A stretch of 64,000 nt of DNA from positions 1 through 64,000 of the IMG/VR virus record IMGVR_UViG_3300009086_000015, one strand, 5' to 3'. Below the pieces are notes generated by a model that had not been told where the DNA came from, ran no database searches, and saw only the letters and a program-made list of their open reading frames with translations. Of the stretch, positions 6,362 to 44,520 are shown piece after piece (the stretch's first letter is position 1; every line of letters begins with the position of its first letter). A program made the position numbers and the translations under genes. This DNA is from a virus.

Positions 6362-7351
6362 ATGGCAAAAAAAGTAGGCAAGCATTCCGCAGCGGCTAAT
6401 GATTTTCTAGAGCCAAAGCCAGTAGTAATAACATCATCAACTGATGTTGGAACTGGAAGAGCTGTAAATAATGGTGCAATCGATATAGTCTGGTCATTGC
6501 CAGCTGGTTCACCAGAAGCAACACTTTATACAATAACTCCCTCACCATCCGTAGCAGGATCACCGTGGACAACAGCAGCAACTTCTTATAGAGCACAGGG
6601 ACTAGCATCAGCAACCTCATACACATTCTCAATTGTTGCATCAAATGCAGCAGGAGCCGCTGCTGCAACATCAACTTCTGCGGTCACTGCAACAACAATT
6701 CCAAGCGCACCGACTTCAGTTTCAGTTGCTTCAACAGTAACTAATACTGATAGGGTTACATGGCTTGCACCAACAACAGACGGAGGAAAAGCAGTATCAA
6801 GTTATACTATTGTTTCCTCAGACGGTCCATCTTATGCAAATTCTGTTTCTCCAAAAGACATAGGAGAAACTGGAAACACTTCTCAAAACTATACAATTTA
6901 TGCAATAAATGCCAACGGCACAAGCGCAGGCGCAATAACAAACACAGTAACTACGTTTACGCCTCCACACTTCCCACCGTTCTTTCCTCCACACTTCCCA
7001 CCATTCTTCCCACCGTTCTTCCCACCACACTTCCCACCATTCTTCCCACCACACTTCCCACCATTCTTCCCACCATTCTTCCCACCACACTTCCCACCAT
7101 TCTTCCCACCACACTTCCCACCATTCTTCCCACCGTTCTTCCCACCATACTTCCCACCGTTCTTCCCTCCACACTTCCCACCATTCTTCCCACCGTTCTT
7201 CCCACCATACTTCCCACCGTTCTTCCCTCCACACTTCCCACCATTCTTCCCACCATACTTCCCAGCACCACCATACTTCCCAGCACCACCGTACTTCCCA
7301 GCACCACCGTACTTCCCAGTATTTAGAGGATCAAGCTCTAGACTATATTAA
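6362..7351 (+). CDS. FN3 plus PPxF-repeat tail-fibre protein
   Basis: 329-residue protein in three parts. Residues 1-30 are a short lead; about 30-200 hold two fibronectin type III-like domains (PSAPTSVSVAS, then SYTI strands); 201-300 are 25 PPxF tetrapeptides in five 20-residue blocks (x order H-F-H-F-F three times, then Y-F-H-F-F and Y-F-H-F-Y). Three PPYFPA units and a basic tail ending SSSRLY follow. The fibronectin part probably anchors it in the tail and the PPxF array forms a rigid polyproline-like extension. The array is nearly identical in DNA to those at 1-180 and 44101-44196. Confidence 0.8.
   Translation: MAKKVGKHSAAANDFLEPKPVVITSSTDVGTGRAVNNGAIDIVWSLPAGSPEATLYTITPSPSVAGSPWTTAATSYRAQGLASATSYTFSIVASNAAGAAAATSTSAVTATTIPSAPTSVSVASTVTNTDRVTWLAPTTDGGKAVSSYTIVSSDGPSYANSVSPKDIGETGNTSQNYTIYAINANGTSAGAITNTVTTFTPPHFPPFFPPHFPPFFPPFFPPHFPPFFPPHFPPFFPPFFPPHFPPFFPPHFPPFFPPFFPPYFPPFFPPHFPPFFPPFFPPYFPPFFPPHFPPFFPPYFPAPPYFPAPPYFPAPPYFPVFRGSSSRLY
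6962..7261 (+). repeat. 25 x 12-bp PPxF repeat in five 60-bp blocks
   Basis: Tandem 12-base units coding PPxF are arranged as five 60-base superrepeats. Blocks 1-3 read H-F-H-F-F, block 4 Y-F-H-F-F and block 5 Y-F-H-F-Y. Units differ only at a few third positions and at the x codon, which indicates recent expansion or gene conversion. Confidence 0.92.
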
Positions 7352-7354
7352 AAA

Positions 7355-7386
7355 TTTATGAGGGGCTAGCAATAGCCCCTCATAAA
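7355..7386. terminator. Perfect 14-bp hairpin overlapping a promoter
   Basis: TTTATGAGGGGCTA, loop GCAA, and its exact complement. There is no T run after it on the + strand, but on the - strand it is followed by TTTTTAATA. It lies between the PPxF fibre gene and the next promoter, so it may be a terminator or an RNA stem; its right arm is the spacer of the promoter. Confidence 0.5.
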
Positions 7387-7395
7387 TGATATACT
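7367..7395 (+). promoter_or_regulatory. Extended -10 promoter before 7412
   Basis: TATACT (7390-7395) with an upstream TGA extended -10. The -35 position (TAGCAA, 17-base spacer) is weak and lies in the hairpin loop. An AGGAG ribosome site follows at about 7402. Confidence 0.45.
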
Positions 7396-7411: not shown

Positions 7412-7813
7412 ATGGATAAAAAATATATTTTAGTAGCAGGAAACGAAGTCATTGACATAATATCATTTACTGATAAGTATGAGCAGCATGATAGATGGGT
7501 TGCTGGATTTTCATCAAACGATTTAACTTTTATCAATGTTTCTGGTAATGAAAATGCTATTTTAGGTTCTACATATTCAGATGGAGCATTTACAAAATAT
7601 AATGAGCCTAGAATTCCAGTTAGCGACTTTGAAGGCAGATACGCAATTTTAAAAAATAATGAAATCTTTTATTTAAAATTTTTAGATGCAGGAAAATTAA
7701 ATGATTTCTACACCGAAAAATGGGAAAGCATAACAAATGCAATAGCAGTAGACCCAGAAGAAGAAATTACATTTTTGCATAAATGGGATGGTACAAACTT
7801 TATTGTTGAATAA
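7412..7813 (+). CDS. Paralogue of 377-823 small two-domain protein
   Basis: 133-residue protein with a clear AGGAGA site. Like its paralogue it looks like two modules of about 60 residues: the first has AGNEV, then RWVAGFSS and NVSGNE; the second has KNNEIFYLKF and ends WDGTNFIVE. The first module aligns with the first module of the 377-823 product (RWxAGxxSS, then FIN). Both genes follow a PPxF-repeat fibre gene, so this is a duplicated fibre-partner cassette. The function is unknown; a role in fibre folding or decoration is inferred from position only. Confidence 0.75.
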   Translation: MDKKYILVAGNEVIDIISFTDKYEQHDRWVAGFSSNDLTFINVSGNENAILGSTYSDGAFTKYNEPRIPVSDFEGRYAILKNNEIFYLKFLDAGKLNDFYTEKWESITNAIAVDPEEEITFLHKWDGTNFIVE

Positions 7814-7837: not shown

Positions 7838-8509
7838 ATGGAAAAAGATTTTTCCTTTTCTTCAAAAGAAGAGCTAACCCCTGGAATATGGGTATATAGA
7901 GATGCCATAAAGCCAGAACTTGATATAATAAATAGATTAGAACAAACCTTAGAATCAAGTAATGGTTTATATAATTGGCAAGAAGCCACAGTAGGATATA
8001 GAGAAAAAATCCCAGACTATCGTGACTGTGTAGACTTTAAGATTAATTTCTTTGACTACCCAGGCAAAGATGAGTACATGAAAAAATTTGATGAAATATG
8101 GAAAGATGTAAGAGACGCACAAAAAGTTGCTCTTGATGACTACTGTGCATTTTATAAGATTGATATGAAATACTGGGAAGCCATGAACTTTATTAAATAT
8201 GGCCCAGGACAACACTTCTCATACCACTCTGATCACGGATGGTCATACATTGCAACAGTATCAATGGTTGCTTATATTAATGATGACTATGAAGATGGTG
8301 GATTAAGATTTGATAAAATGGATTTAGAGGTAAAACCAAAAGCTGGCGATCTATATATATTCCCATCAAACTATTTATTCTCTCACTCAGCACTACCAGT
8401 TAAATCTGGAACAAAGTATTCAATTGTTACAATGACTGACTATAATGATGCAACCCACACCCCAGAATTTTATAGACAGTTTAAATCAGAGATATCACAG
8501 CCAGACTAA
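7838..8509 (+). CDS. 2-oxoglutarate/Fe(II) dioxygenase 1
   Basis: 223-residue prolyl-4-hydroxylase-type enzyme. The metal ligands are visible: H130 and D132 in YHSDHG and a distal H183 in FSHSALPV. A basic residue ten positions on (K193) fits the 2-oxoglutarate anchor. The core strand YINDDYEDGGLRF and KPKAGDLYIFPS are diagnostic. It should couple oxidative decarboxylation of 2-oxoglutarate to hydroxylation of a protein or small substrate in the infected cell. It is the first of six such genes, spaced or overlapped as one operon. The substrate cannot be read from the sequence. Confidence 0.88.
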   Translation: MEKDFSFSSKEELTPGIWVYRDAIKPELDIINRLEQTLESSNGLYNWQEATVGYREKIPDYRDCVDFKINFFDYPGKDEYMKKFDEIWKDVRDAQKVALDDYCAFYKIDMKYWEAMNFIKYGPGQHFSYHSDHGWSYIATVSMVAYINDDYEDGGLRFDKMDLEVKPKAGDLYIFPSNYLFSHSALPVKSGTKYSIVTMTDYNDATHTPEFYRQFKSEISQPD

Positions 8510-9234
8510 TGTTCGACATTGATGTATATAAAATTAGTCCTACTCCAGGAGAATTTAAACAGCTGCCAGTTAAAAGAGATTGGATGGACGAAACTGATAA
8601 TGCTCACGCATATAAATGTTTTCCATTAAGTTTAACAAACTCTCTTGGATGGGGCATATCTTTTCCAGAAGATATAACTTTTATATGGGATGGAATTGCT
8701 ACATCAAGCGAGCCAGACCATGTAAAAATACTAAGTGGTCATAAGTATGCATATACAGCAAGAGAAAATGCAACAATAAGTTTTAAGACTGGTCTTTTAA
8801 TTAAAACTCCAGAAAATGTAACAATGCTATCAATGCCACCACCAAACTATATTTTAGATGGCGTACAGCCGCTCACAGCTTTAATAAGTACATCATTTTT
8901 TAAAGGGGAGTTCCCAGCAGCATGGAGAATTACTAGGCCAAATGTTGAAATAACTATTAAAGCTGGAACACCAGTAATGTCTGTTATTCCTATATCTCTT
9001 GGCGAATTAAATAATTCACAAGCAAACATTAGACCTCTTTATGAGCTTGGTCCTAATTTTTTCCCAGACGGAGACTACTCAAAAATTGTTAAAGATATAA
9101 ATAATTCTGGTCGGTGGACAAATTTTTATAGAGATGCAGTAGATCACCACGGTAAAAAAATTGGAGACCATGAAGTAAAAGTTTTAAGATTTAAAACTAC
9201 AGACGGTAGCCCAGAGGTATGTAGTGACAAATAA
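8509..9234 (+). CDS. DUF6065-like protein A
   Basis: 241-residue protein starting in a TAATG overlap with the first dioxygenase. It contains LSLTNSLGWGISFPEDITF and later IKAGTPVMSVIPIS, features I associate with DUF6065-like proteins of phages and environmental bacteria. It looks beta-rich, without metal-binding His-Asp motifs or membrane segments. The next gene product shares the pattern of a hydrophobic strand followed by AGTPVxxVxP, so the two are distant paralogues. Placement inside the dioxygenase run implies a shared pathway, perhaps substrate binding; no enzymatic role is known to me. Confidence 0.7.
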   Translation: MFDIDVYKISPTPGEFKQLPVKRDWMDETDNAHAYKCFPLSLTNSLGWGISFPEDITFIWDGIATSSEPDHVKILSGHKYAYTARENATISFKTGLLIKTPENVTMLSMPPPNYILDGVQPLTALISTSFFKGEFPAAWRITRPNVEITIKAGTPVMSVIPISLGELNNSQANIRPLYELGPNFFPDGDYSKIVKDINNSGRWTNFYRDAVDHHGKKIGDHEVKVLRFKTTDGSPEVCSDK

Positions 9235-9949
9235 AATAGTATTTCATTCTGCAAAGGTATACAATAAAGCTGACGGAACAAATGGACCAGTACCAGCTGC
9301 AAATTCTGTTCCAACTTGGTGGAAAGACGCAGACAAATATATAAAAGATCCAAATGGAGAAGCATATGTAAACCCAAGCGGAGAAGGAAAAGTTATGAGC
9401 TACAAGTCATGCCCAGCTATGCTTGACACATTTACTTCTGGCTATATGCTAAGAACTCCTTGCGATATAGAGTTTTATCTAAAAAGAGGAAGAGTCAAGG
9501 CAAAGCTTCCAATAGGGTTTGAAGATTTAGTTGGAGAAAGAGAACCTATGGGTGGTTTTGAGACACCGCCAGGATTTGATGAAAGACATTTCCATTGGTA
9601 TCTTAACTGGGCACCAGAACTTCCAGAAGGATATAGCAGTCTATACCTACAACCAATAAATCATTTTAATTTACCTTACATTACTGTTGCTGGTATAATA
9701 GATAGTGACAAGGTAACAAACTCAGGACTGCTTCCTTTCTTTTTAAAAAGTGGATTCACTGGCCTAGTTCCAGCAGGAACGCCAATAGTTCAAGTTTTTC
9801 CTTTCAAAAGAGAAGATTGGGAAATGGAATATAAATTCTATACTCAAGAAGAACTTTTTGAAAAACATAAGCAAAATTCAATTACATTTAGACAACCAGA
9901 GGGTGGCGTCTATAAAAGAGACTTCTGGCAAAGAAGAAAATACAAATAG
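9224..9949 (+). CDS. DUF6065-like protein B
   Basis: 241-residue protein whose GTG start overlaps the preceding gene by 11 bases. It has an aromatic N-terminal half (VPTWWKDADKY, then SYKSCPAMLDTFTSGYMLRTPCDIEF) and a C-terminal segment GLVPAGTPIVQVFPFKREDW that parallels IKAGTPVMSVIP in the neighbouring protein. It ends in a basic tail. It is probably a cytoplasmic, beta-rich member of the same loosely defined family. Its place between dioxygenases 1 and 2 suggests a joint function, but no catalytic residues can be named. Confidence 0.68.
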   Translation: MTNKIVFHSAKVYNKADGTNGPVPAANSVPTWWKDADKYIKDPNGEAYVNPSGEGKVMSYKSCPAMLDTFTSGYMLRTPCDIEFYLKRGRVKAKLPIGFEDLVGEREPMGGFETPPGFDERHFHWYLNWAPELPEGYSSLYLQPINHFNLPYITVAGIIDSDKVTNSGLLPFFLKSGFTGLVPAGTPIVQVFPFKREDWEMEYKFYTQEELFEKHKQNSITFRQPEGGVYKRDFWQRRKYK

Positions 9950-9957
9950 GAGATATC

Positions 9958-10647
9958 ATGCAAAAGCAAGTAAATACTAACAAGGAACACGATTATAAAA
10001 AGCTGAGCTCTATAACTCCATCTGGATTTTTTGGTAATTCTGCAGATAATATAGTAGAGCTAAAAAACTTTTTGACAGAAGAAGAAAAAGAAAGACTTAC
10101 AAATTTTGCTTTTAATAACAAGGTTTGGGATATAACAGAATCTCACACTAATGAAAATGGAACAGTTATCTATGATGCAAATGCATGGACAGATAGAGTA
10201 TGTACCAGAAGATCTATGGAAATTTCTGCAGACCCAACGATTGTTGATGTTGTTGAAGGATTAATTAAAAGATTAAAAGTAGAGGTTGATAAATTTTTTG
10301 AGGTAGACGTTCAGGCAACTGGACCCGCAATTGTCAGATGGCCAGTAGGATCTAGACAAGACCCACACGCAGACAAAGAGCTTCACGAAGGTCCAGATGC
10401 TGGAACCCCAAACGATTTTCCTCATTACGATATTGCATCAATATTTTATTTTAATGATGACTATGAAGGAGGAGAGCTATTCTTCCCAGTACAAGGGGTA
10501 GAGATTAAACCAAGCGCTGGCTCGGCATACTTTTTTCCAGGAGACCTTCATTACGTGCATGGGGTTAGACCAGTTTTGTCTGGAAATAGATTTACATCTC
10601 CATTTTTTTGGAATATATTAAAACACACTGGAGAAAGACAGCCATGA
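9958..10647 (+). CDS. 2-oxoglutarate/Fe(II) dioxygenase 2
   Basis: 229-residue enzyme preceded by an AGGAGATATC site. Residues of about 125-225 form the double-stranded beta-helix core: metal ligands HAD in RQDPHADKE, FYFNDDYEGGELFF, KPSAGSAYFFPG, distal His in HYVHGV, and an Arg in GNRFTSPFFW for the 2-oxoglutarate carboxylate. All expected active-site residues are present, so it should be active. The N-terminal half contains LKNFLTEEEKERL, typical of prolyl 4-hydroxylase-like phage proteins. The substrate is unknown. Confidence 0.9.
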   Translation: MQKQVNTNKEHDYKKLSSITPSGFFGNSADNIVELKNFLTEEEKERLTNFAFNNKVWDITESHTNENGTVIYDANAWTDRVCTRRSMEISADPTIVDVVEGLIKRLKVEVDKFFEVDVQATGPAIVRWPVGSRQDPHADKELHEGPDAGTPNDFPHYDIASIFYFNDDYEGGELFFPVQGVEIKPSAGSAYFFPGDLHYVHGVRPVLSGNRFTSPFFWNILKHTGERQP

Positions 10648-11480
10648 AAGATTTAAAATATGAGGAGATTTATCCAAAAATATTTGTATACAGCAATATA
10701 TTTGAAGATGTAAATGAAGTCCTTAATGTTTTAAAAGAGTCCATAGCCAGCCCTGAAGGTTCTTCAATTGGTCCCTGGGTAGACTGGTATACATTTGGGC
10801 TAGAAACAAGCCATTACGATTGGTCTATTAATTCAGACAGATCCATCAAAGAAAGATTAGTACTTGATAAAGTAAATCAAGTTTTTTTTGATGTTACAGA
10901 GCACTATGCTGCATCACACAATGTAGACATAAAGCCAGAAAGAGTTTTAACGCCAAGCGGACAAGAAGTAGATTCTTGGAGAAAGATGGGGCCATCTCTA
11001 TGTAAATATGATGCGGAAGCTGGAGTTACTCAAGACCTAGCAATGCATTATCATACAGACTATCAGGTTGAATTTAAAGACTCAAGAGGATACAACTTTG
11101 CAGTTACAGTAACAACATACTTAAATGATGACTACGATGGCGGAGAAATTGATTTTTTAGTAAATGGAAAACTTATATCATACAAGCCAAAGGCTGGCGA
11201 CGTACTTGTTTTTCCAGCGGGAGACCCAAACTTTTTAACAGAAGGACAAGAGCTATATCACCACGGAGTTAAAAAAGTACACAATGGCTCAAAATATTTT
11301 ATAAGAGCAAATTGGCAAAGGTATTACAATGGCTCTGTAGAGTGGAATGAAAATGCAGACAAATATGGACTAGAGATCTGGCTAGAAATGGAAAAAGAAA
11401 AAGCTAAGCAAGATAGAAAAGAAGGAAAGTATCAGTCCATTAACGAACAAGATATAGAGAAAGCGGTAAGAATAAAATGA
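10644..11480 (+). CDS. 2-oxoglutarate/Fe(II) dioxygenase 3
   Basis: 278 residues from ATG 10644, which overlaps the preceding TGA as ATGA and has GGAGA upstream; an in-frame ATG at 10608 lies inside the previous gene and is less likely. The core shows HTD in MHYHTDYQ, TYLNDDYDGGEIDF, KPKAGDVLVFPAG, distal His in YHHGV and a Lys/Arg pair downstream. The N-terminal 100 residues include a Trp-rich segment (GPWVDWYTFG). After the core there is a charged helical tail of about 40 residues rich in Lys and Glu, not seen in its neighbours. Confidence 0.88.
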   Translation: MKDLKYEEIYPKIFVYSNIFEDVNEVLNVLKESIASPEGSSIGPWVDWYTFGLETSHYDWSINSDRSIKERLVLDKVNQVFFDVTEHYAASHNVDIKPERVLTPSGQEVDSWRKMGPSLCKYDAEAGVTQDLAMHYHTDYQVEFKDSRGYNFAVTVTTYLNDDYDGGEIDFLVNGKLISYKPKAGDVLVFPAGDPNFLTEGQELYHHGVKKVHNGSKYFIRANWQRYYNGSVEWNENADKYGLEIWLEMEKEKAKQDRKEGKYQSINEQDIEKAVRIK

Positions 11481-12214
11481 CATTTAACCTAGAAAATCAA
11501 ACTAGACTAAGAGAAGACATTTGCGTTTTTGAAAATTTTTTAACTGAAGAAGAATGTGAATCAATATTAAAATACTGGAAACACTCAGTAGAAAAAGGAA
11601 CCCTTCCGTGGGAGGGTATTTCTTTTTATGAGTCATACGCATCAAACTTACCAGATGACGAAGATGTAGAAAAGTTTGGCTTACCACTAGATTTTTTTGT
11701 AAATCTTGAGAAAAAAATTCAAGAGTCTGTTGAGATTACAAGAGGAAAACCAGTAAAATCTGTAAGCTATCATGCACAAAAATGGATCACAGGTGCATTT
11801 GCAGGATACCATTCTGATAATAGCCCTCTAGATGACCCAGAGTATAATGCTTTTGAAAGGTCTAAGTGGGCATCATTTCTTTATTTAAATGGTGACTTTG
11901 AAGGCGGAGAACTTAAGTTCAGAGATCACGATATAAGCATTAAGCCAAAAGCTGGCCTGTTAGCATCATTTTCTGGAGGTCACCACAATATCCATGAAGT
12001 CCAGATAATTACAGATGGAGAAAGATACACAATCGGATCATTCTGGGATAACGAAGAGTCTGAATATTCTGAAGAAACAAAAGAAAAATGGAAAACAGAA
12101 ATAGCTGAAGCAAGAATAAGACAAGCCGAAGATCAAAAGTTGTGGCAAGAAAATAAATCTAAAGGAATTATGGAAGAGCCACCACCGTACCAAAAGGAAA
12201 GAATAAAAGATTAA
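11477..12214 (+). CDS. 2-oxoglutarate/Fe(II) dioxygenase 4
   Basis: 245-residue enzyme beginning in an ATGA overlap. Metal ligands HSD (AGYHSDNS), SFLYLNGDFEGGELKF, KPKAGLLASFSGG, then HHNIHEV and GERYTIGSFW supply the distal His and the Arg. The N-terminal part begins with a FENFLTEEECESIL helix like dioxygenase 2. The C-terminal 40 residues are a charged helix ending with a PPPY motif. The asparagine-glycine variant (LNGDFEGGE) distinguishes it from the LNDDYEGGE of its neighbours. Confidence 0.88.
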   Translation: MTFNLENQTRLREDICVFENFLTEEECESILKYWKHSVEKGTLPWEGISFYESYASNLPDDEDVEKFGLPLDFFVNLEKKIQESVEITRGKPVKSVSYHAQKWITGAFAGYHSDNSPLDDPEYNAFERSKWASFLYLNGDFEGGELKFRDHDISIKPKAGLLASFSGGHHNIHEVQIITDGERYTIGSFWDNEESEYSEETKEKWKTEIAEARIRQAEDQKLWQENKSKGIMEEPPPYQKERIKD

Positions 12215-12226
12215 CAAGGAGATATC

Positions 12227-12907
12227 ATGAATCTAGAAAAACTGCACGAAAACGTTTACTATTACAGGAATGCAATAGCAGACCCAGCCGCACTAATTGA
12301 GCTGATTAATAGCACAGAGGGCGAAGAGAGTATATCTAAAGTAGTTCCTTCTTGGGACCACTGGGAGGCTTGCAGTGGAGAATGTTATATCTACGGGGAA
12401 AAGAAAAACTTAAATATAGAAAACATGCTTGAAATCAATAATGATGAATCTAAAGAAAAAGCACAAAAAATAATAGACATCATTGTAAACTCAATGACAG
12501 ATGTTTGTAAAGATTTTGCTAAAGACAAAGGTGTCACAGAAAAAGTTAATTTATCTCCATATATTGGTATAAATAAATATAAGCCTGGAACATTTATGGG
12601 AGGTCACTATGATCAACAAGAAGGAGATTTAAGATTAAAGTATTCTCTTGTTGCTTATTTAAATGATGACTACGAAGGCGGAGAGATTTCTTTTACAATT
12701 AAAGAAGGAATACTTGGCGAAGAAGATAGACCACGAGAAGACATTGATCATGAAATGAATAAAGAAAAAGTAACATTCTATCTTAAGCCAGAAGCTGGAA
12801 GTATATTAATTTTTCCTTCTTCTCCACCATATAATCACACAGCCCATCTTGTTAAGAGTGGTTATAAATACATGGTACCTGGGTTTTGGATGAACGAGGA
12901 GAAATAA
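12227..12907 (+). CDS. 2-oxoglutarate/Fe(II) dioxygenase 5
   Basis: 226-residue enzyme with an AAGGAG site before ATG 12227. It has HYD (GGHYDQQEGD), AYLNDDYEGGEISF, a loop insert of about 25 residues rich in Glu and Arg, then KPEAGSILIFPSS, distal His in NHTAHLV and a Lys in GYKYMVPGFW. The insert before the last strands is unusual for the cluster and may shape the substrate site. It is most similar to dioxygenase 6, next door, which lacks the insert; the two look like a tandem duplication. Confidence 0.88.
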   Translation: MNLEKLHENVYYYRNAIADPAALIELINSTEGEESISKVVPSWDHWEACSGECYIYGEKKNLNIENMLEINNDESKEKAQKIIDIIVNSMTDVCKDFAKDKGVTEKVNLSPYIGINKYKPGTFMGGHYDQQEGDLRLKYSLVAYLNDDYEGGEISFTIKEGILGEEDRPREDIDHEMNKEKVTFYLKPEAGSILIFPSSPPYNHTAHLVKSGYKYMVPGFWMNEEK

Positions 12908-12908
12908 A

Positions 12909-13514
12909 TTGCATTACGAAGCTCAAGAACTAGCAAAAAATATTTTTTATTTTAAATTTGGAATTTATGAGCCACATAAACTCATAGAGTTTATTGAAAA
13001 CACTGACGTGGACCCAGAGATAGACGAAAGTATTATTTCTAAATGGACACCATGGACTTCAAGCACAAGCCCAGATGATATATATGGATATAAAAAAAAT
13101 ATTAATGGTAAAAATAAAATATTAAGTCCAAAAGAGCTATATATATATAATAGTATAAGGTCAAGCATGATCTTCGCTGCATCTGAATATAAAATATACA
13201 ACAACATAACAGACGATATACACATGTCTAAAGAATTTGATATTAAAAAATATAATACTGGTCAGATGATGGGCCCCCACGCAGACCAAAACGATGGGGA
13301 CTCTAATTTAAACTACTCAATAGTTGTTTATCTAAACGATGACTATGAAGGTGGAGAGATATCTTTCCCTAATCATAACGTAATGCTAAAACCAAACGCA
13401 GGCAGCCTTATAATATTCCCATCCTCAGATCCATATCTACATGAATCAAAAGAGATAACGTCTGGAATAAAGTATATGTCCCCAGGATTTTGGACTAAGC
13501 AAAAAACAGACTAG
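12909..13514 (+). CDS. 2-oxoglutarate/Fe(II) dioxygenase 6
   Basis: 201-residue enzyme from a TTG start at 12909, one base after the previous stop and 6 bases after AGGAGAA. The core has HAD (GPHADQNDGD), VYLNDDYEGGEISF, KPNAGSLIIFPSS, distal His in YLHESKEI and GIKYMSPGFW. The last 90 residues run nearly parallel with dioxygenase 5, which supports recent duplication. The first 100 residues are Lys- and Tyr-rich and less conserved. It closes the dioxygenase run. Confidence 0.87.
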   Translation: MHYEAQELAKNIFYFKFGIYEPHKLIEFIENTDVDPEIDESIISKWTPWTSSTSPDDIYGYKKNINGKNKILSPKELYIYNSIRSSMIFAASEYKIYNNITDDIHMSKEFDIKKYNTGQMMGPHADQNDGDSNLNYSIVVYLNDDYEGGEISFPNHNVMLKPNAGSLIIFPSSDPYLHESKEITSGIKYMSPGFWTKQKTD

Positions 13515-13530: not shown

Positions 13531-15255
13531 ATGCTATATAAAAACATTGTATTAAAAGACAATCCAATTGGCTTTTGGCCTCTTGATGAATCTTCTGGTG
13601 CAACTGCCTATGATTATTCTGGATCGCAAAACCATGCTTCCTATAACTTTACCCCAGATAATAAATTTTTACCCCTTGTTCCTGGCGGGATTCTTGGAAC
13701 AAAAATAAGCGGAACAAACAAAATAACTTTTTTAAATTTAAAAAGTCCATACGGTAATTACATCCAAGGCGCACTTGCCGATAAATATAGTTCTGATGTT
13801 TCATTTACAATAGAATGCTGGGTTCAATTTAATGAAGTTACTTCTGCAACAATATTTGCAGACCAATCAAATGATATAGGATTTTATTGGGCAAACAACG
13901 CTATAGTATTTTCAATAGGAACAGATAAAAAAATATATCATCTCGTTAAAGATAAATACAAGTCTATGCATGTTGTGGGAACCTACTCAAACAACCTAAT
14001 GAGCTTGTATCTAGATGGAGATCTGATAGAAACAATCGATGTAACAGATTTTCTTTTTACAAATTCTACATTTGCTCCACAAATAGGAACAGTCTCTGGC
14101 AGCGCATCTTCATATATGATAGTAGATGCTCCAGCTATTTATAGATATCAGCTATCAAACTATTCAGTATTAACTCACTATCAAATGGCAGCATTGCCAA
14201 ATTATGTTTCTATTGCAGATCCAGAAAATGGAAGAGCTTTTTCAAATACAGACGGTACATCTTTATTAAGCTTAGTATACCAATACGGATTTAATAGAGA
14301 CATGCAGCTCTTACAAAATGACGATCTATATTACAACACATTAACAAAAACAATTTCTCTTTTTAAAACAGAAGAAGCAGTGTCTAAAACAACAGAAGTT
14401 ATAGACGTAATATCAATACCCATGATGCTAGACTTTGTTTCATCAAAAATTGAATGGTCTTCTGACAACGGGGTATCCATCTATACTAGCTCAACTGGTG
14501 AATCTAACTCATACGTACAATGCGAAAATGGATTTCCTATACCACAATATCAGTATAACTCTTTGGCTGATTCTGGAATAATATATCTAAAGGTTGTTTA
14601 TTCAACGACAGACTTATCTAAATACACTCCTTCTTTAGAAAATTTATCAATAACACTGTACTCAGAACTTAGCGTTACGGCATCTAATTCACCAGCCACG
14701 CTATCTTCATCTTCTAATATTTCAATAGGATCTAAGTCCACCCCAGCTATAAAAAGAAATAGGGCATCTGGAATTCGAACTGGTGGGTCAGGATCATTTA
14801 CTGTGTCAGACACAGAAGAAACAAAAACAGTTGAAATGGTGTACACACCTGAAAATATAAACGCTTCCTCTTTATTATCTAGAGGGTCCAGCCATATATC
14901 CTGGAATCAGGCGGGAGTCATATCAAAGTCTGGTTTTGATAGCCTATATATCAATGGGTCGCTAGTTTCATGGTCAAGTAATATATGGACGTATTTGACA
15001 AAAAATCAGCCTTCTCACATTGTTGCGGTATTTACGGCTGGCGGGACAGAGGACATTGTGTTTAATAATCAAGGAATAGCTTCTAAATATGAAGGCATTT
15101 CTTTGTATCCATCATCTGTAACAATAAGCCCATCTGTTCATTATGCAATGCATATTGGCTCATATTATGAAAACATATCAAATGAGTCAATGACCATGAC
15201 AGAAATTGGCACCCCTATATATAATTATGACTTTGTTGTGGTCAAAACCGTATAA
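13531..15255 (+). CDS. LamG-like structural protein
   Basis: 574-residue protein. The N-terminus (NPIGFWPLDESSGATAYDYSGSQNHAS) and the segment SFTIECWVQF, then MSLYLDGDLIETI, are hallmarks of a concanavalin-like LamG/jelly-roll domain (about residues 10-225). A middle beta-rich region follows, and a second jelly-roll-like segment may lie at about 430-570 (VEMVYTPENI, then SLYINGSLVSW). Such domains bind carbohydrate or act as spacers in virion surface proteins. The position between the dioxygenases and the head genes does not reveal where it sits. The start is leaderless. Confidence 0.78.
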   Translation: MLYKNIVLKDNPIGFWPLDESSGATAYDYSGSQNHASYNFTPDNKFLPLVPGGILGTKISGTNKITFLNLKSPYGNYIQGALADKYSSDVSFTIECWVQFNEVTSATIFADQSNDIGFYWANNAIVFSIGTDKKIYHLVKDKYKSMHVVGTYSNNLMSLYLDGDLIETIDVTDFLFTNSTFAPQIGTVSGSASSYMIVDAPAIYRYQLSNYSVLTHYQMAALPNYVSIADPENGRAFSNTDGTSLLSLVYQYGFNRDMQLLQNDDLYYNTLTKTISLFKTEEAVSKTTEVIDVISIPMMLDFVSSKIEWSSDNGVSIYTSSTGESNSYVQCENGFPIPQYQYNSLADSGIIYLKVVYSTTDLSKYTPSLENLSITLYSELSVTASNSPATLSSSSNISIGSKSTPAIKRNRASGIRTGGSGSFTVSDTEETKTVEMVYTPENINASSLLSRGSSHISWNQAGVISKSGFDSLYINGSLVSWSSNIWTYLTKNQPSHIVAVFTAGGTEDIVFNNQGIASKYEGISLYPSSVTISPSVHYAMHIGSYYENISNESMTMTEIGTPIYNYDFVVVKTV

Positions 15256-15317: not shown

Positions 15318-15656
15318 ATGAATATCTTAAACCAAAAATCACAGATTCTAGAAGAAACCACACTTGGCATATACGTGTGGGAAATGCCCGATGGCAGATG
15401 GATTGGAGACGATGATGGCAACTTCCTATCAGTCACATCCAAAAAAGGAAACAGATCTAAAATGGACGCTTTGGCTAGAGAGGTTCGCTCATACGGTATT
15501 TATGAGGGCCAACCTAAATTCCTTTCTGGCAGAAGAAAAATCGATGACGAAGAATTTGAATATCAAAACGAAAGACTAAAGTGGGGCCTAACACCAGACC
15601 CTATGGATATTGGTGTTTATAAAGACTCAATGTTAAGAAATGGTAAGGTCAAATGA
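15318..15656 (+). CDS. Hypothetical protein upstream of portal
   Basis: 112 residues from ATG 15318. An earlier ATG at 15300 would overlap the -10 box, so it cannot be in the transcript. The protein has WEMPDGRWIGDDDGNFLSV, a basic middle and a C-terminal segment WGLTPDPMDIGVYKDSM. It is soluble and without recognised domain. It overlaps the portal gene by ATGA, so it is made with it. Small proteins of this type often precede the portal in actinophages, but no role is known to me. Confidence 0.65.
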   Translation: MNILNQKSQILEETTLGIYVWEMPDGRWIGDDDGNFLSVTSKKGNRSKMDALAREVRSYGIYEGQPKFLSGRRKIDDEEFEYQNERLKWGLTPDPMDIGVYKDSMLRNGKVK

Positions 15657-17245
15657 AAAGGCTAGAATCTATAGAAGACGAAATTGATACAGTATCCACA
15701 ATTGATATATCAAATACGTCCGACTGGTTTCATTTTCAAAAGCTAGATGGGCCTCAAGATGATCCATTTAAAATTGGCTTAGAAGAAATTAAAAAGTTAA
15801 GAGGCCTTGGAACAAACTTTAAACGTAAAATTAATCGTGACTTTTCAAAAGCATTTGTTGGAACAAGCGGAGTTTCAACACAGCAGAATTTATTACAGCA
15901 GGCAATTAGCGGGTATGCATTATTTGATCTAGTAGAGCCCACTTATAACCTAGAATACCTTTCAAAAATTTATGAAGTTTCAACGTATAACTACGCAGCA
16001 ATTAATGCAAAGGTTTCAAATATTGTTGGGCTTGGATACATGTTTACAGAGACATCTAAAGCTAAAGATGCAATGGATGCAATTACAGATGATAAGCAAT
16101 TAGATAGAGCCCGTGCAAAAATTGATAGAATTAAAACACAGCTAGACAAATGGCTTGATGATTGTAATGAAGAGGAGTCTTTTACAGAGACCCTCATAAA
16201 GGCCTACACAGACCTTGAGGCGACAGGAAATGGTTATATAGAGGTAGGACGTACAGTCACTGGAGACATAGGCTATATCGGCCACATACCAGCTAAGACA
16301 ATGCGTGTGCGTAGATTCCGTGATGGGTTTATTCAGTTGCTCTACGGCAAGGCAGTTTTCTTTCGCAACTTTGGAGACCTAGAAACACCTAGCCCAATTG
16401 CTGGTCAAGAAGATCGACCAAACGAAATTATACATTTAAAGAAGTACACTCCAATGAATAACTATTACGGAGTTCCAGATATTATTGCTGCACAACAAGC
16501 GCTGGCAGGAAATGAATTTGCAGGAAGATATAACCTAGACTACTTTGAAAATAAGGCGGTCCCAAGATATATTATTACAGTAAAAGGAGCAAAGCTTTCT
16601 CCAGAGTCAGAAAGAAAGCTACTAGAGTTTTTCCAAGTTGGACTAAAGGGAAAGAACCATAGATCGCTATATATCCCACTACCAGCAGATACCCCAGATT
16701 CAAAAACCGAATTTAAGATGGAACCAATTGAAGCAGGCGAACAAGAGTCTTCATTTAATATCTATCGTAAATCTAATAGAGATGAAATCTTGCTGGCTCA
16801 CCGTGTCCCAATTAGCAAGATAGGCATCCCAGAAGGAATTAACTTAGCAGCAGCCAGAGATGCAGATAAAACATTTAAAGAGCAGGTATGTCGCCCATCA
16901 CAAGATAGGCTTGAAAAGAAGCTAAACTATTTAATTGCAGAAAAGACAGATGTCGTACAATTAAAGTTTAATGAACTTAGCCTTACTGACGAAGAGACAC
17001 AAAGCCGCATTGACGAAATTTATTTAAGAATGCAGGTAATTACCCCTAACGAAGTTCGCATTAGAAAGAACATGACAACCGTAGACGGTGGAGACGAAAT
17101 GGTAGATTTAAAGCCACAGCAAGTGGCTGATCAAAATGCCAAGTCTACTGGCAACAGATTGCGAGACCAGCAAAGGTCCGCAAATGCCCCAGATAAAAGC
17201 GGAGAGGCCAGAAACCCAAAAGGTGATGGTCCAAAAGTCAAATAA
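15653..17245 (+). CDS. Portal protein
   Basis: 530-residue portal. Position before the prohead protease and capsid genes, length and features such as YNYAAINAKVSNIVGLGYMF, TDLEATGNGYIEVGR, HIPAKTMRVRR and LAGNEFAGRYNLDYFENKAVPRYII identify the portal family of siphophages; the portal forms the dodecameric DNA channel at one vertex of the head. A long helix-rich region at about 300-420 includes HRVPISKIGIPEGINLAAARDADKTF. The C-terminal 50 residues are polar and probably disordered. It overlaps the preceding gene. Confidence 0.88.
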   Translation: MKRLESIEDEIDTVSTIDISNTSDWFHFQKLDGPQDDPFKIGLEEIKKLRGLGTNFKRKINRDFSKAFVGTSGVSTQQNLLQQAISGYALFDLVEPTYNLEYLSKIYEVSTYNYAAINAKVSNIVGLGYMFTETSKAKDAMDAITDDKQLDRARAKIDRIKTQLDKWLDDCNEEESFTETLIKAYTDLEATGNGYIEVGRTVTGDIGYIGHIPAKTMRVRRFRDGFIQLLYGKAVFFRNFGDLETPSPIAGQEDRPNEIIHLKKYTPMNNYYGVPDIIAAQQALAGNEFAGRYNLDYFENKAVPRYIITVKGAKLSPESERKLLEFFQVGLKGKNHRSLYIPLPADTPDSKTEFKMEPIEAGEQESSFNIYRKSNRDEILLAHRVPISKIGIPEGINLAAARDADKTFKEQVCRPSQDRLEKKLNYLIAEKTDVVQLKFNELSLTDEETQSRIDEIYLRMQVITPNEVRIRKNMTTVDGGDEMVDLKPQQVADQNAKSTGNRLRDQQRSANAPDKSGEARNPKGDGPKVK

Positions 17246-17262
17246 GTTTAATCGACTGCTAT

Positions 17263-17291
17263 TTGCGTTAGAGTAGATAAACCTATAAAAT
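17263..17291 (+). promoter_or_regulatory. Promoter before head protease, leaderless
   Basis: TTGCGT (17263-17268), a 17-base spacer and TAAAAT (17286-17291). ATG 17299 follows 7 bases later without a ribosome site. Confidence 0.55.
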
Positions 17292-17298
17292 TAAGCAT

Positions 17299-18609
17299 AT
17301 GAACATTGAAAAAGGCCTATGGTCAAGTAATGGCGACAACTTGCACTTGTCAGTACCATTTACTAAAGTCAACCGTGAAAACAGAACAGTCTCTGGTTTT
17401 GCAACATTAGATAATGTTGATCAGACAGGTGATGTAGTTACTGCTGAAGCAAGCATGAAAGCATTTGAAAGCTTTAGAGGAAACCTTCGTGAGATGCATC
17501 AACCAATGGCTGTTGGTAAAGTAGTATCATTCAAGCCAGAAACATACTACGACCAAACAACAAAAGAATTTTACAATGGAGTTTATGTAACTTCATATAT
17601 TTCAAAGGGTGCACAAGACACTTGGGAAAAAGTTCTTGATGGTACTCTTTCTGGTTTTTCAATCGGCGGAAAAATAACAGAGTCTGACAATGAAGTTAAT
17701 AAGGCGGACGGAACACAGGTTAGATTTATCAAGGCTTACGATCTAGTAGAGCTATCAATTGTAGATTCACCAGCAAACCAACTTTGCAATATTCTTTCAA
17801 TTGAGAAGATGAATGGCCAACTTGTATTCAAGGGTATGGCAGCAGATGTTGTTACAGAAAATATTTTTTATTGTGAAGAAAGCGATTCTGTTTTTATGTC
17901 AACAGAAAAAACTTTTGATTCACCAATCACAGGTAAGCCAGCAAAAATTATTGGCTGGGTAGAAAGTTCAGATATGAATAAGTCAAAAGAAATAGATAAG
18001 ATTCTTGCTTCATTTAAGAAGACAAGATTAGCGTTGCCTGAAACACAAACAATTGCAAAACAGGCAAACGTAGAAGGAGGTAATGAGATGTCAGACGTAC
18101 AAAATGATGTAGTTGTAGAAGCCGTAGAAGCAGAAACAATTATTGAAAAGTCTGTCGACGTTGTAGAAGAAGTAGCAGCAGTTGAGGCTATTGCAGAAAC
18201 AACCGAAGACACAACTCCTGCCGACTCCGTTGAAGAAACAGTTGAAAAAACAGCTGATCCTGACTTTGCAAAAATGTTAGGCGATCTTAAGGGATTTTTC
18301 TCGGAGACACTCGCAAAGGCTACAGACGCAAATGCGGCTCAAGTTTCAGAAATTAAAGAAACAGTTGAGTCATTCAGCAAGAGCGTAAATGGTCAAATTG
18401 CAGAGTTGGCAGAAAAGCATAATGCATTAAGCACAGCAGTGCTAGAAATCAAAGGCACCATTGATGGTGTTCAAAAGCGTGTAGATGCCGTCGAAGGCGA
18501 CACAGCTATTAAGAAGTCTTCTGATCTTGGCCGTTCAGAGGTTGTAACAAAAAAATCAACATGGAACGGTTCTTTCCTCGGTTCCGTAAATGAAATCTTT
18601 TCAAACTAA
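17299..18609 (+). CDS. Prohead protease fused to scaffold
   Basis: 436-residue protein. Residues 1-170 match the HK97-type serine prohead protease: FTKVNRENRTVSGFATLDNVD at the start, a candidate catalytic His67 in REMHQP, GTLSGFSIGG holding Ser118 and Ser121, and DLVELSIVDSPAN with Glu151. It should cleave the capsid scaffold during head maturation. Residues of about 250-400 are acidic and then heptad-like (FFSETLAKATD, then VQKRVDAVE), which looks like a fused scaffolding domain, a known arrangement in siphophages. No separate scaffold gene is seen before the capsid gene. Confidence 0.85.
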   Translation: MNIEKGLWSSNGDNLHLSVPFTKVNRENRTVSGFATLDNVDQTGDVVTAEASMKAFESFRGNLREMHQPMAVGKVVSFKPETYYDQTTKEFYNGVYVTSYISKGAQDTWEKVLDGTLSGFSIGGKITESDNEVNKADGTQVRFIKAYDLVELSIVDSPANQLCNILSIEKMNGQLVFKGMAADVVTENIFYCEESDSVFMSTEKTFDSPITGKPAKIIGWVESSDMNKSKEIDKILASFKKTRLALPETQTIAKQANVEGGNEMSDVQNDVVVEAVEAETIIEKSVDVVEEVAAVEAIAETTEDTTPADSVEETVEKTADPDFAKMLGDLKGFFSETLAKATDANAAQVSEIKETVESFSKSVNGQIAELAEKHNALSTAVLEIKGTIDGVQKRVDAVEGDTAIKKSSDLGRSEVVTKKSTWNGSFLGSVNEIFSN

Positions 18610-18627
18610 AGGGTAGGTGAAATAAAA

Positions 18628-19677
18628 ATGAGTAATGAACTATTAGAAAAAGCAGTAGCAGCAGGTACAAATGTAACTGGTAGCTATGCATCCGCAACTG
18701 GTGGAACTGGAGTACACACAGCGTCTGAAAATGGCAATGGTGGACTTCTAAACCCAGAACAATCAGCGCGATTTCTAGACTATATGTTCGACGCTACCGT
18801 AATTGGTAAGGTTGCACGTACTGTCCGAATGAAAGCAGATACAACAGAGATTGACCGTATGTCTATCGGTGAGAAGCTTGTAAAGCTTGCAACTGAAGCA
18901 GACAACACAGGAGTTAACTCACCTGTAACATTCTCAAAAATTTCTTTGACAACAAAGAAGCTTCGCATGGACTGGGAACTTTCAACAGAGTCTCTTGAAG
19001 ACAATATTGAAGGCGCAGACGTCGAAGATCATATTGCCAGAATGATGGCAACACAAGCAGGTAACGATATTGAAGATTTGATCCTAAACGGAGATACTTC
19101 ACTAACTGGAGATGCTCTTTACAAGTCATTTGATGGCGCAGTAAAGAAGGCAAAGACTTCAGGTCGCGTAGTAGATGCAGCTGGAGCAGCCGTTTCACGT
19201 GCTGTATTCAACTCTGCACTTAAGGCACTTCCACGTAAGTACAAGCAGCGTCGTACAGACCTTCGCTTCCTTGCAGGATCAAACTTGATCCAGGATTACC
19301 TATACTCAACATCTAATTCAACAAACTTTGCAAACCCACAGGATATTGCTTCAGGCATCATCCGTGGTGATGTTCCAGTTGTTGGAGGTCCAGCAGGATA
19401 TGTAGCTCCATACGCATTTGGTATTCCAATCGTTGAAGTTCCACTTCTTAATGAGACACAGGCTGGTACATACGCTAGCCCATCAGGTTCACACGGAGAT
19501 ATCCACTTGACATTCCCAAATAACGTTGTTATTGGTATCAAGCGTGATGTTACTGTTTACCGCTTCTTCTGGCCACGTAAGGACTCAGTCGAGTACACAA
19601 TGTATACTCGTGTTGGCGTCCAGATCGAGCAAGCAGATGCTTGGGTAGTCGTAAAGAACGTTAAGGTTGCTTCTTAA
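18628..19677 (+). CDS. Major capsid protein, HK97 fold
   Basis: 349 residues. It has an N-terminal segment rich in Gly and Thr (about 1-45), then RFLDYMFDATVIGKVARTVRM and SLTTKKLRMDWELSTE, and a C-terminal RFFWPRKDSVEYTMYTRVGVQIEQADAWVVV. These are typical of HK97-fold major capsid proteins; it follows the protease gene with a GTAGGTGAAAT-like site. Its arginine codons are almost all CGN (10 CGT, 4 CGC, 2 CGA, 1 AGA by my count), unlike most genes here, which prefer AGA. That is a bias expected of the most highly expressed gene. A strong terminator follows. Confidence 0.9.
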   Translation: MSNELLEKAVAAGTNVTGSYASATGGTGVHTASENGNGGLLNPEQSARFLDYMFDATVIGKVARTVRMKADTTEIDRMSIGEKLVKLATEADNTGVNSPVTFSKISLTTKKLRMDWELSTESLEDNIEGADVEDHIARMMATQAGNDIEDLILNGDTSLTGDALYKSFDGAVKKAKTSGRVVDAAGAAVSRAVFNSALKALPRKYKQRRTDLRFLAGSNLIQDYLYSTSNSTNFANPQDIASGIIRGDVPVVGGPAGYVAPYAFGIPIVEVPLLNETQAGTYASPSGSHGDIHLTFPNNVVIGIKRDVTVYRFFWPRKDSVEYTMYTRVGVQIEQADAWVVVKNVKVAS

Positions 19678-41307: not shown

Positions 41308-44300
41308 ATGGGTTTATTTGCTAAGACTGGTTCCACTACATGGTCAACCACTAAAAAAGTATTTGCTAAAACTAGTACTGGTGGTTGGTCTGTAATAAAT
41401 TCTGTCTGGGCAAAAGTAGAATCTGGTTGGCAAAAAGTGTGGCCAAAAATTGCACCTTCAACAAACCCAGACGACCCAATAAACATTAGATTAAATTCTT
41501 ATAATGGAACAGAAGCCACTGGCTATATGTACATAGATACAATTTTGTATGGCCACGATGGCCTTTTTCTTAATGGACCAGCCACAGCCTCAGATAGAAA
41601 ATTTGTTGCTTCAACGTCAGTTAATTTATCAGATATAGTTTCGGGGGATGTAGAAACAACAGCCCCATTAGATGTATTTAATCTGTCTAATAATACAGAC
41701 ACAACAAGAAATAGAATAGATGGCAATTATTTATTCTATCAATTAAAAGCTACTAATAATCAAGACCCAAGTTTATCCACAGTTTTAAATGGTCCAGTGC
41801 CTCCAATTAAAATTATTAAAAAAACCCCATCTATTACATCAACTATATTTACAGAATCTGGTGATGGCATATATCAAATGGAATTTTATGCCTCCTCTAA
41901 ATGGTACAACTCACCAGACCTAGCAAATTCATATGTAAGATGGTGGAGGCATACTGATAAAGTAAACTACAGAAATGGCACAATACTTCAAACAGATTAT
42001 TTTACATCTACTAATATAAACAACTTTCAAAAATTTGGAACTGGCTGGACAGATGGATCAAGCACATCACCAGACCTAAATGCAATTTCAATTTTGGCAA
42101 CAACTGTTCCCGCAGTCGGAACATATATAATTGCAGAAGTTGTTTTAAAAAATTCTTTTACAACACATTTTAGTACCGAAGTAACAGCAGTAAAATTTAG
42201 CGGAGTCTTGCCATTTATTCGTAACGTAAGGTTTGAAGATGATAATGGAAGAGATCCAACCGATTATTTAAATAGACTTATTACAGATGGGTATTGGTAT
42301 TTAAAATTTGATGCCGACAATGTAACAGCCTCAACAACATATAGAGTTGATTATAGGCTATATGATGTGCAACTTGGAGTATATTATAATTTTTTAACTG
42401 GTTCATCTTTTACAAATGGAAACTCTTGGCCAACACAATATAATGTTACGGGCACACTTAGCGGCACCACAGCATATTTAAATGATGGAAGAAGATTTAT
42501 TAATACATCAAATTTCCCTGCGGCATCCCATACATATGGCGGAGGTATAGTAAGATATAGACTAGGTATTAGAATAACAGCACAAACACCTGGACAACAA
42601 AGAACATATTTTAGCGGTGTAATAAATAATAATGGTGGGCCTTATGTGTTGGCAGATACTGGAGGAGAATTTGATTTAAATACAGAATCAGTTATTGCGT
42701 TATCCGCATCAAAAACATCCCCAGCAGTTGCTGAGTCGATAACTTTTAGTGGAACTACCACTTCATTTCCAACAGGATACACATCATATCCAAGACAATA
42801 TAAGATAGATTTTGGAGATGGGACAACTACTGGAACTGTTGAAAATGGTGGTTGGGTAAACTTTCCTGGCACGTCCAATCCTGGATTTTCTGTAACCAAA
42901 TCTTATGCTACCGCAGGCACTTATGCTGCAACACTTTTTTGGACACCACAAGGAGATAAGTCTAGATCTACATCCACACAAATAACAATAACAGTAACTA
43001 GCCCTCCAGTAAATACTTCTGCTCCTACTCTTACTGGAACAAATCTATCGCCAGGAGAAGTTTTAAATTTTGATGTTGGATCTTGGACAAACTCACCAAC
43101 AAGCTATACAGTTAAAATATATAGAGGAACTGCAAGTGTAGCAACCAGCGAAACATTGGTATCTACACAAACAATTACAGCACCAACAACAACTGGAACC
43201 TATACAATAACTCAGGAAGATTATACGAATACAGGTATAAGTCCAGTACGGAGATACCTTAGAGTGTTTGTTACTGCAACTAATGGCACACCCTCCGCAC
43301 AAGTTGCTGGTGGAGAGGTTGGTCCAGTCACACCAACAATTTATACAATTACTTGGGATAAAAATGATGGAACAGGAACTATATCAACATCTACATTTAG
43401 TGCAGGCGGATCAGTAACAGCACCAAATCCAACAAGAGCAAATTATGTCCTTGACAGATTTACAGAAACCACATCAGGAACTTATTTTTATTCAGTTTTG
43501 GGAGGAGCTTCATGGAGCCCTCCTTCAGTAAGCAGAACCATGTATGCAAGATGGACATATTCTCCACCATCATACACCTTTGCTTTTGGAAATAAGATAA
43601 GCGTTTCTACAAATGGATATATTTCTTTAGGTTCCAGCACTGTAATTACAGAAAATTCAGCAGATGCTGTTACCTCTACAGCTGGTAAAGTTCTAGCAGT
43701 TCTACCATTAGATATGGTTCAAACATCCCTATACTATTGGTCAGATACATCAAAATATATTGTTAGATGGAGCGGATATCAATATGGAAATGCTGCAAAT
43801 ATAATGACATATGAAGCAACATTTTATGCTGGTCAACAATATGCTGACATAATGATTATAGATAGATTTACATTTCAATCCACAGCCGCCGCTTATATGA
43901 TTGACGGAGTTGCAATAACAAGCTATCCTGCCACACCAATTCAAAGTAGTAAATATCGTGTTTATTTTAATGGGACCGTACCAGCTGTAGTAGCATATAC
44001 CGCTACAGCTACATCTGTAATGAAGAGAGACACAACAAAAGATACGGTTGATGTTGGAACAACTACATTGACAACTGCTACAAACCAGACTTCGTTTATA
44101 GCACCACACTTCCCACCGTTCTTCCCACCACACTTCCCACCGTTCTTCCCACCGTTCTTCCCACCACACTTCCCACCGTTCTTCCCACCTTACTTCCCAG
44201 CCGCAGCCTTGCCAGGAGTACCTACTGGAGTAACGGCTACAAACGATGGAACAAACACTACAATAAGTTGGAATGCAGTATCAGGTGCAACAAGCTATGA

Positions 44301-44520
44301 CATATGGTATCAAAGCGCATCCACATATAGCGGAACAAGTCGTGACTTTGGTCCAATAACAGGAACTTCTTATGTTACTCCTACATCATCTTTGTTCTAC
44401 TATTTTGTTAGAGCAGTAAATGCTACGGGTAACGGATCCTACTCAGCTGGAGTACTGGCAACTGCTGGTTCAACACCACCATTCTTCCCACCGTATTTTC
44501 CAGGTATTAGAGGATATTAA
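41308..44520 (+). CDS. Mosaic tail fibre: PKD, InlB-B-like, FN3 and PPxF
   Basis: 1070 residues. The first 50 residues carry short Trp repeats (FAKTSTGGWSV, then VWAKVESGWQKVW). Beta-rich modules follow; about 475-570 is a PKD domain (DFGDGTTTGT, then GTYAATLFW); about 680-750 resembles the InlB B-repeat (TWDKNDGTGTI, then RTMYARW). Eight PPxF units (first one APHF) at about residues 932-963 precede an FN3-like domain (VPTGVTATNDGTNTTISW), and two further PPxF units lie near the C-terminus, which ends FPGIRGY. Such a mosaic is typical of adhesive surface proteins. It is probably the tail-tip adhesin. Confidence 0.8.
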   Translation: MGLFAKTGSTTWSTTKKVFAKTSTGGWSVINSVWAKVESGWQKVWPKIAPSTNPDDPINIRLNSYNGTEATGYMYIDTILYGHDGLFLNGPATASDRKFVASTSVNLSDIVSGDVETTAPLDVFNLSNNTDTTRNRIDGNYLFYQLKATNNQDPSLSTVLNGPVPPIKIIKKTPSITSTIFTESGDGIYQMEFYASSKWYNSPDLANSYVRWWRHTDKVNYRNGTILQTDYFTSTNINNFQKFGTGWTDGSSTSPDLNAISILATTVPAVGTYIIAEVVLKNSFTTHFSTEVTAVKFSGVLPFIRNVRFEDDNGRDPTDYLNRLITDGYWYLKFDADNVTASTTYRVDYRLYDVQLGVYYNFLTGSSFTNGNSWPTQYNVTGTLSGTTAYLNDGRRFINTSNFPAASHTYGGGIVRYRLGIRITAQTPGQQRTYFSGVINNNGGPYVLADTGGEFDLNTESVIALSASKTSPAVAESITFSGTTTSFPTGYTSYPRQYKIDFGDGTTTGTVENGGWVNFPGTSNPGFSVTKSYATAGTYAATLFWTPQGDKSRSTSTQITITVTSPPVNTSAPTLTGTNLSPGEVLNFDVGSWTNSPTSYTVKIYRGTASVATSETLVSTQTITAPTTTGTYTITQEDYTNTGISPVRRYLRVFVTATNGTPSAQVAGGEVGPVTPTIYTITWDKNDGTGTISTSTFSAGGSVTAPNPTRANYVLDRFTETTSGTYFYSVLGGASWSPPSVSRTMYARWTYSPPSYTFAFGNKISVSTNGYISLGSSTVITENSADAVTSTAGKVLAVLPLDMVQTSLYYWSDTSKYIVRWSGYQYGNAANIMTYEATFYAGQQYADIMIIDRFTFQSTAAAYMIDGVAITSYPATPIQSSKYRVYFNGTVPAVVAYTATATSVMKRDTTKDTVDVGTTTLTTATNQTSFIAPHFPPFFPPHFPPFFPPFFPPHFPPFFPPYFPAAALPGVPTGVTATNDGTNTTISWNAVSGATSYDIWYQSASTYSGTSRDFGPITGTSYVTPTSSLFYYFVRAVNATGNGSYSAGVLATAGSTPPFFPPYFPGIRGY
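44101..44196 (+). repeat. PPxF-coding 12-bp repeat, third array
   Basis: Eight units, x order H-F-H-F-F-H-F-Y, the first with Ala for the first Pro. Two more units (PPFF, PPYF) lie at 44476-44499. The DNA matches the arrays at 1-180 and 6962-7261 almost unit for unit although it is about 37 kb away. Confidence 0.9.

Follow-up and report, generated by a model that had tools for sequence, protein, structure and literature searches.

Six 2-oxoglutarate (2OG)/Fe(II) oxygenase genes of an uncultured tailed phage, together with their neighbours, probably form a post-translational modification operon that hydroxylates the phage's own tail-associated proteins bearing proline-aromatic tracts; the gene linkage and the type of the enzymes both point to this substrate. 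The source record, 69,566 bases in length, is probably a fragment, and its positions 1-64,000 constitute the stretch of DNA analysed here (the window). Multi-copy 2OG oxygenase genes are already known in phages and the new point is their context with a tract protein. An earlier link between phage 2OG arrays and Pro-aromatic tail tracts was not found in the searchable literature (subscription papers and preprints being outside its scope), and a literature search for phages that combine Pro-Phe repeats with 2OG enzymes, or for hydroxyproline in tails, yielded nothing relevant.

The Oxygenase Genes and Their Module

All six oxygenase genes lie on the plus strand, i.e., A (gene 1, 7838-8509), B (gene 2, 9958-10647), C (gene 3, 10644-11480), D (gene 4, 11477-12214), E (gene 5, 12227-12907), and F (gene 6, 12909-13514, with a TTG start). 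An earlier note on this DNA had reported these six open reading frames and the retention in each of the metal triad, the core strand and a basic residue, and this was confirmed: a Pfam profile search places all six above the gathering score of PF13640 (E 7e-13 to 7e-8), and an alignment of seven copies, the seventh being a PF13640 gene that a scan of the record revealed past the window end (record positions 64268-65077), shows the HxD...H triad, the N[DG]D[YF][ED][GD]G strand and a distal C-terminal Lys/Arg in all six, with no ligand lost. In alignments of the separate families (21-62 relatives each) the iron and 2OG ligands are invariant and one Lys is nearly so. Judged by sequence, each of the six window genes encodes an intact 2OG/Fe(II) oxygenase, and they represent distinct families; where PHROG labels array proteins "ferrochelatase" or "DNA endonuclease V", the label was taken as a misnaming of a 2OG domain. 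Several of the array genes overlap by a few bases, which suggests co-translation. The description of the six as tandem is right as to their number but not in the strict sense, since two unrelated genes (8509-9949) part genes 1 and 2.

These two genes, X (8509-9234; DUF6065, PF19541) and Y (9224-9949; DUF6065-like, phrog_7084), are likewise on the plus strand, as are those for the small proteins U (7412-7813; a weak match to phrog_14370) and U' (377-823; phrog_14370), the latter following the first tract gene of the window, and for a laminin-G/ConA-like protein, G (13531-15255), a conserved element that closes the module ahead of the portal gene. Close relatives have the gene order tract-U-A-(A)-X-Y-B-C-D-(E)-F-LamG-portal, and other module types read tract-A-Y-A-X-B-C-D-D-E or tract-B-B-B-A-X. 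The accessory families E and F vary with the type of tract: in a small sample, family F occurs in all nine dereplicated modules with a PPxFF tract vs. 10 of 23 others (p 0.004) and family E in none of the nine vs. 12 of 23 (p 0.012), both p values being uncorrected for phylogeny and multiple tests. A perfect 15-bp hairpin (7354-7387) without a T-run on the plus strand lies downstream of the tract gene and ahead of the enzyme genes, and a similar hairpin in one relative (L100) is formed by a different sequence. It is a possible attenuator or mRNA end and, speculatively, would fit high expression of the substrate and low expression of the enzymes; in promoter and terminator scans the site counts were not above those of shuffled sequences. 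Further along the record (66423-68561) a large protein is encoded with an apparent signal peptide, a proline-rich linker and, judged by eye, possibly a PA14-like domain. DNA comparison revealed no close isolate. The protease (window 15653-19677) is ~45% identical to those of Streptomyces phages (Stanwilliamsviridae), which hints at an actinobacterial host; the stretch read of one member of that family, Moab, contains no 2OG annotation.

Age and Copy Number of the Paralogues

The proposal that genes 5 and 6 arose by a recent duplication is refuted: they share only 36% identity over 223 amino acids, gene 5 is closer to the seventh gene (43%), and each has separate orthologues in other phages. 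The 36% identity and the old orthologous families rule out a recent tandem duplication. A moderately supported tree built from 263 representatives places A, B, C, D, and F in separate clades shared with many other phages and groups E with the seventh gene. The paralogues are, therefore, old and were inherited as a set. The number six, put forward as exceptional, is in itself a weak argument. Among IMG/VR relatives found via the capsid protein or gene 5, 40 of 43 carry PF13640 and 33 carry at least five copies, with a maximum of 11, and for cyanophages 2OG copy numbers of 1-5, 9, and up to 24 (S-SCSM1) have been reported (PMC9602691, PMC9146016, PMC3037559).

The Pro-Aromatic Tract Proteins

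Three tract proteins are encoded in the window, all on the plus strand. The most likely main substrate (6362-7351) is encoded two genes upstream of oxygenase A and comprises an N-terminal fibronectin-III part (residues 1-200; fn3 match with E 1e-7) followed by a (PPHFPPFF)n tract (residues 200-322), i.e., a run of ~120 residues of the type (PP[HFY]F)n. The first possible additional substrate (1-336) is the C-terminal part of a PASTA-tract-Cys-rich protein, with ~63 residues of (PP[HFY]F)n and then a Cys-rich tail; a complete sibling copy (L468:7261-7839) has, judged by eye, a PASTA-like segment at its start, and the tract protein of another relative (L341) has a Pfam match to PASTA. The third tract protein (41308-44520), also a possible substrate, is encoded downstream of minor tail genes and carries (PPHFPPFF)n near residues 930-965 and PPFFPPYF at its C-terminus.

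The Phe codons of the tract have a TTC:TTT ratio of 41:2 vs. 67:250 in other genes, and its proline codons are variable. At 6965-7300 TTC is thus strongly favoured in an otherwise TTT-preferring genome, and T6 runs would be avoided. In the tract proteins of some relatives (L371:9028-10350, L369:3593-5071, L379:2078-3199) the tract is followed by a Hint/intein-like region, with Intein_splicing/Hint_2 matches below the Pfam cut-off in the first and a judgement by eye in the other two; such an end suggests self-cleavage or conjugation. A cellular origin of the tract was considered and rejected: 84,980 species genomes gave 36 matches. Among these 36, 2OG genes stand beside the tract in L341, L349, and L361, and a tract contig (L359) comes from the same MAG; these four look like phage contigs in MAGs, and the remaining matches are mostly to unrelated repeats.

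Linkage of Tract and Array across IMG/VR

Modules with at least three 2OG genes and at least 2.5 kb of upstream sequence were collected among the best IMG/VR matches to gene F, a survey that accordingly samples this module type, and were picked without reference to the tract. All 40 have a same-strand tract within 2.5 kb upstream, vs. a background frequency of 11 in 2234 windows (0.5%). Single or paired 2OG genes in the same survey are mostly without a tract. The first genes of the 40 modules form 31, 21, 13, and 4 clusters at 95, 80, 60, and 50% identity, respectively, so the modules are not independent events. For the reverse test IMG/VR was scanned with a DNA pattern of the tract (at least 120 stretches). 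Among the matches listed, 44 of 48 tract-bearing records contain PF13640 and 35 of 48 at least five copies, vs. 11 of 46 and 6 of 46, respectively, of control records picked by a tail-fibre motif of another kind (Fisher p 9e-12 and 3e-9); some of the array-bearing controls also proved to hold tract variants. The link holds across several types of both array and tract. Where 2OG genes are few, capsid relatives have a degenerate tract (G019, G022, and G023) or none (G028), and in a capsid relative without a 2OG gene (G032) no tract was seen within the region read. Cyanophage arrays such as that in the stretch read of S-CAM8 are likewise without a tract, and the linkage rule, consequently, applies to a part of the phage 2OG genes.

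Since the gene set always stands behind a tract gene in the relatives, tail proteins of the phage itself are the probable target of hydroxylation. The linkage might also be one of inheritance, with the tract being a plain structural linker, the oxygenases acting elsewhere and an old gene order shared by all; by itself, conserved synteny could be enough to keep the tract gene beside them. All modules do share homologous core families (A, X, B, and D) and much of the order, and are, therefore, not independent. This explanation is nevertheless rather unlikely. The composition of the tract stays constant while its FnIII/PASTA neighbours, the repeat unit and the content of the array vary. The capsid and protease differ among records with tract and array, and long ones exist without a detectable homologue of either protein of this phage; at the sequence level, and with records that may be fragments, this argues for a pairing spread across phage backbones. 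Moreover, two further tract proteins are encoded elsewhere in this phage, and tracts are rare away from the modules.

Enzyme Type

Profile searches of the PDB with A, B, D, and E/F retrieved prolyl 4-hydroxylases (P4Hs), prolyl 3-hydroxylase 1, PKHD and lysyl hydroxylases. The nearest entries are prolyl 3-hydroxylase 1 and bacterial P4H for B, prolyl 3-hydroxylase 1 for D, and a PKHD hydroxylase and P4H for F; the match of C to P4H is weak (E 0.016). The AlphaFold model of A (pLDDT 93.7) has a prolyl-hydroxylase fold and nearly all of its structural matches are protein prolyl hydroxylases, the best being an algal P4H with (Ser-Pro)5 (Z 20.0, rmsd 2.1 over 173 residues); PBCV-1 vCPH (PDB 5c5t) gave Z 17.1. 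By profile, A-F thus appear nearest to prolyl hydroxylases, C weakly so, and the comparison of predicted fold concerns A alone.

Foldseek places a Pseudomonas P4H, crystallised with EF-Tu, at the head of the matches of A, which fits an auxiliary metabolism in which the enzymes would consume 2-oxoglutarate or hydroxylate host EF-Tu or ribosomal proteins and so reprogram the infected cell, as already suggested for cyanophages (PMC3037559, PMC9602691). For the present array this seems improbable, as it leaves unexplained both the need for six distinct conserved enzymes and the position of arrays of at least three genes immediately after a tract gene in all 40 cases among the best matches to gene F.

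X and Y, of 241 amino acids each, are homologous by profile comparison (E 3e-12). X matches DUF6065 (E 6e-35), Pfam gives nothing for Y, and neither matches a dUTPase sequence profile. The model of Y (pLDDT 94.7) has a dUTPase-like match (Foldseek E 1e-3; VIA Z 9.7 over 121 residues), and X is tied to that predicted fold solely through its profile match to Y. X has no match in INPHARED and a literature search on DUF6065 found no paper. Distant relatives of Y occur in tailed viruses of haloarchaea (KC292021.1, 26718-27608), that of Halorubrum phage 7 adjoining thymidylate synthase. This neighbour and the predicted fold of Y would suit AlkB/TET-like oxygenases that, with X and Y, modify or repair bases or nucleotides, and DNA repair is among the roles proposed for cyanophage 2OG genes in work cited by PMC9146016 and PMC3037559, but such a role is highly improbable here because the proteins matched by profile and structure are prolyl and lysyl hydroxylases of proteins and not AlkB/TET, the array lies among tail and head genes and not replication genes, and Pfam and PHROG name no base-modification enzyme among the scanned subset of window open reading frames.

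Proposed Modification of Tail Proteins and Its Precedents

For hydroxylation of the phage's own tail proteins we envisage that the six prolyl-hydroxylase-like enzymes and their partners X and Y would act in trans on the proline-aromatic repeats before assembly. Genes 1-4 had been thought to serve different substrates. They do belong to distinct families, but the conserved order and the linkage to a repeat-bearing tail protein are better read as pointing to one kind of substrate shared by several enzymes that may modify different residues; each enzyme would probably take a different repeat position or residue, prolines first. Hydroxylation would stiffen or solubilise the very hydrophobic tract next to the FnIII/PASTA domains, or make it adhesive, and the modified tract would aid the tail in reaching or binding the host surface. 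The intactness of the enzymes, their closest relatives, the order of the module and its tie to the tract are observed, whereas the substrate and the target residues are inferred from the linkage and the type of enzyme; what hydroxylation does for the phage and what X and Y contribute are suppositions. A putative nucleotide-enzyme-like fold of X and Y is left unexplained by the hydroxylation mechanism.

The nearest precedent for the mode of action is vCPH of PBCV-1, a viral enzyme with the same fold as that predicted for A. Eriksson et al. are said to have found in 1999 that the PBCV-1 prolyl 4-hydroxylase hydroxylates proline-rich peptides modelled on virus-encoded repeats. This phage, too, encodes proline-rich repeat proteins of its own, namely the three tract proteins, although the PBCV-1 repeats are PAPK-like and the tract of this phage is PP-aromatic. 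PBCV-1 is, moreover, an algal virus with one enzyme, whereas the tailed phage has six or seven divergent enzymes and two partners. The best PDB relatives by profile or fold, i.e., the P4Hs of Bacillus anthracis (3itq) and Pseudomonas putida (4iw3) and prolyl 3-hydroxylase 1, are, unlike the phage array, single enzymes of cellular organisms with collagen-like peptides or EF-Tu as substrates. The nearest genomic parallel is offered by T4-like cyanophages (S-CAM8, S-SCSM1, and S-SZBM1), which have several divergent PHROG 61-type genes per genome. S-CAM8 has about six adjacent 2OG-like genes beside tail-fibre genes; its stretch is without X and Y genes and no Pro-aromatic tract was seen in it. A Gly-rich probable adhesin is encoded upstream of its 2OG cluster (L368:2258-3439), and arrays of other kinds may be paired with repeats of other kinds. 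The best INPHARED matches to the array proteins have <40% identity over part of the protein.

Mussel foot proteins contain Pro/aromatic repeats that are modified after translation, with hydroxyproline and DOPA. Their likeness to the phage tract is an analogy alone and implies no sequence relation. It is conceivable, if doubtful, that the multi-enzyme line yields densely hydroxylated tail tracts (with hydroxyproline and perhaps hydroxy-Phe/Tyr/His) forming an adhesive or wall-penetrating tip, convergent with mussel adhesives and widespread in uncultured phages.

What the linkage to the tract offers is a definite substrate, a definite product to seek in virions and many genomes in which to test the idea. 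If the phage indeed hydroxylates its own tail proteins, phage 2OG oxygenases, the role of which has been unclear for more than a decade, would gain a testable substrate, and much of what is annotated as "auxiliary metabolism" would be virion protein modification.
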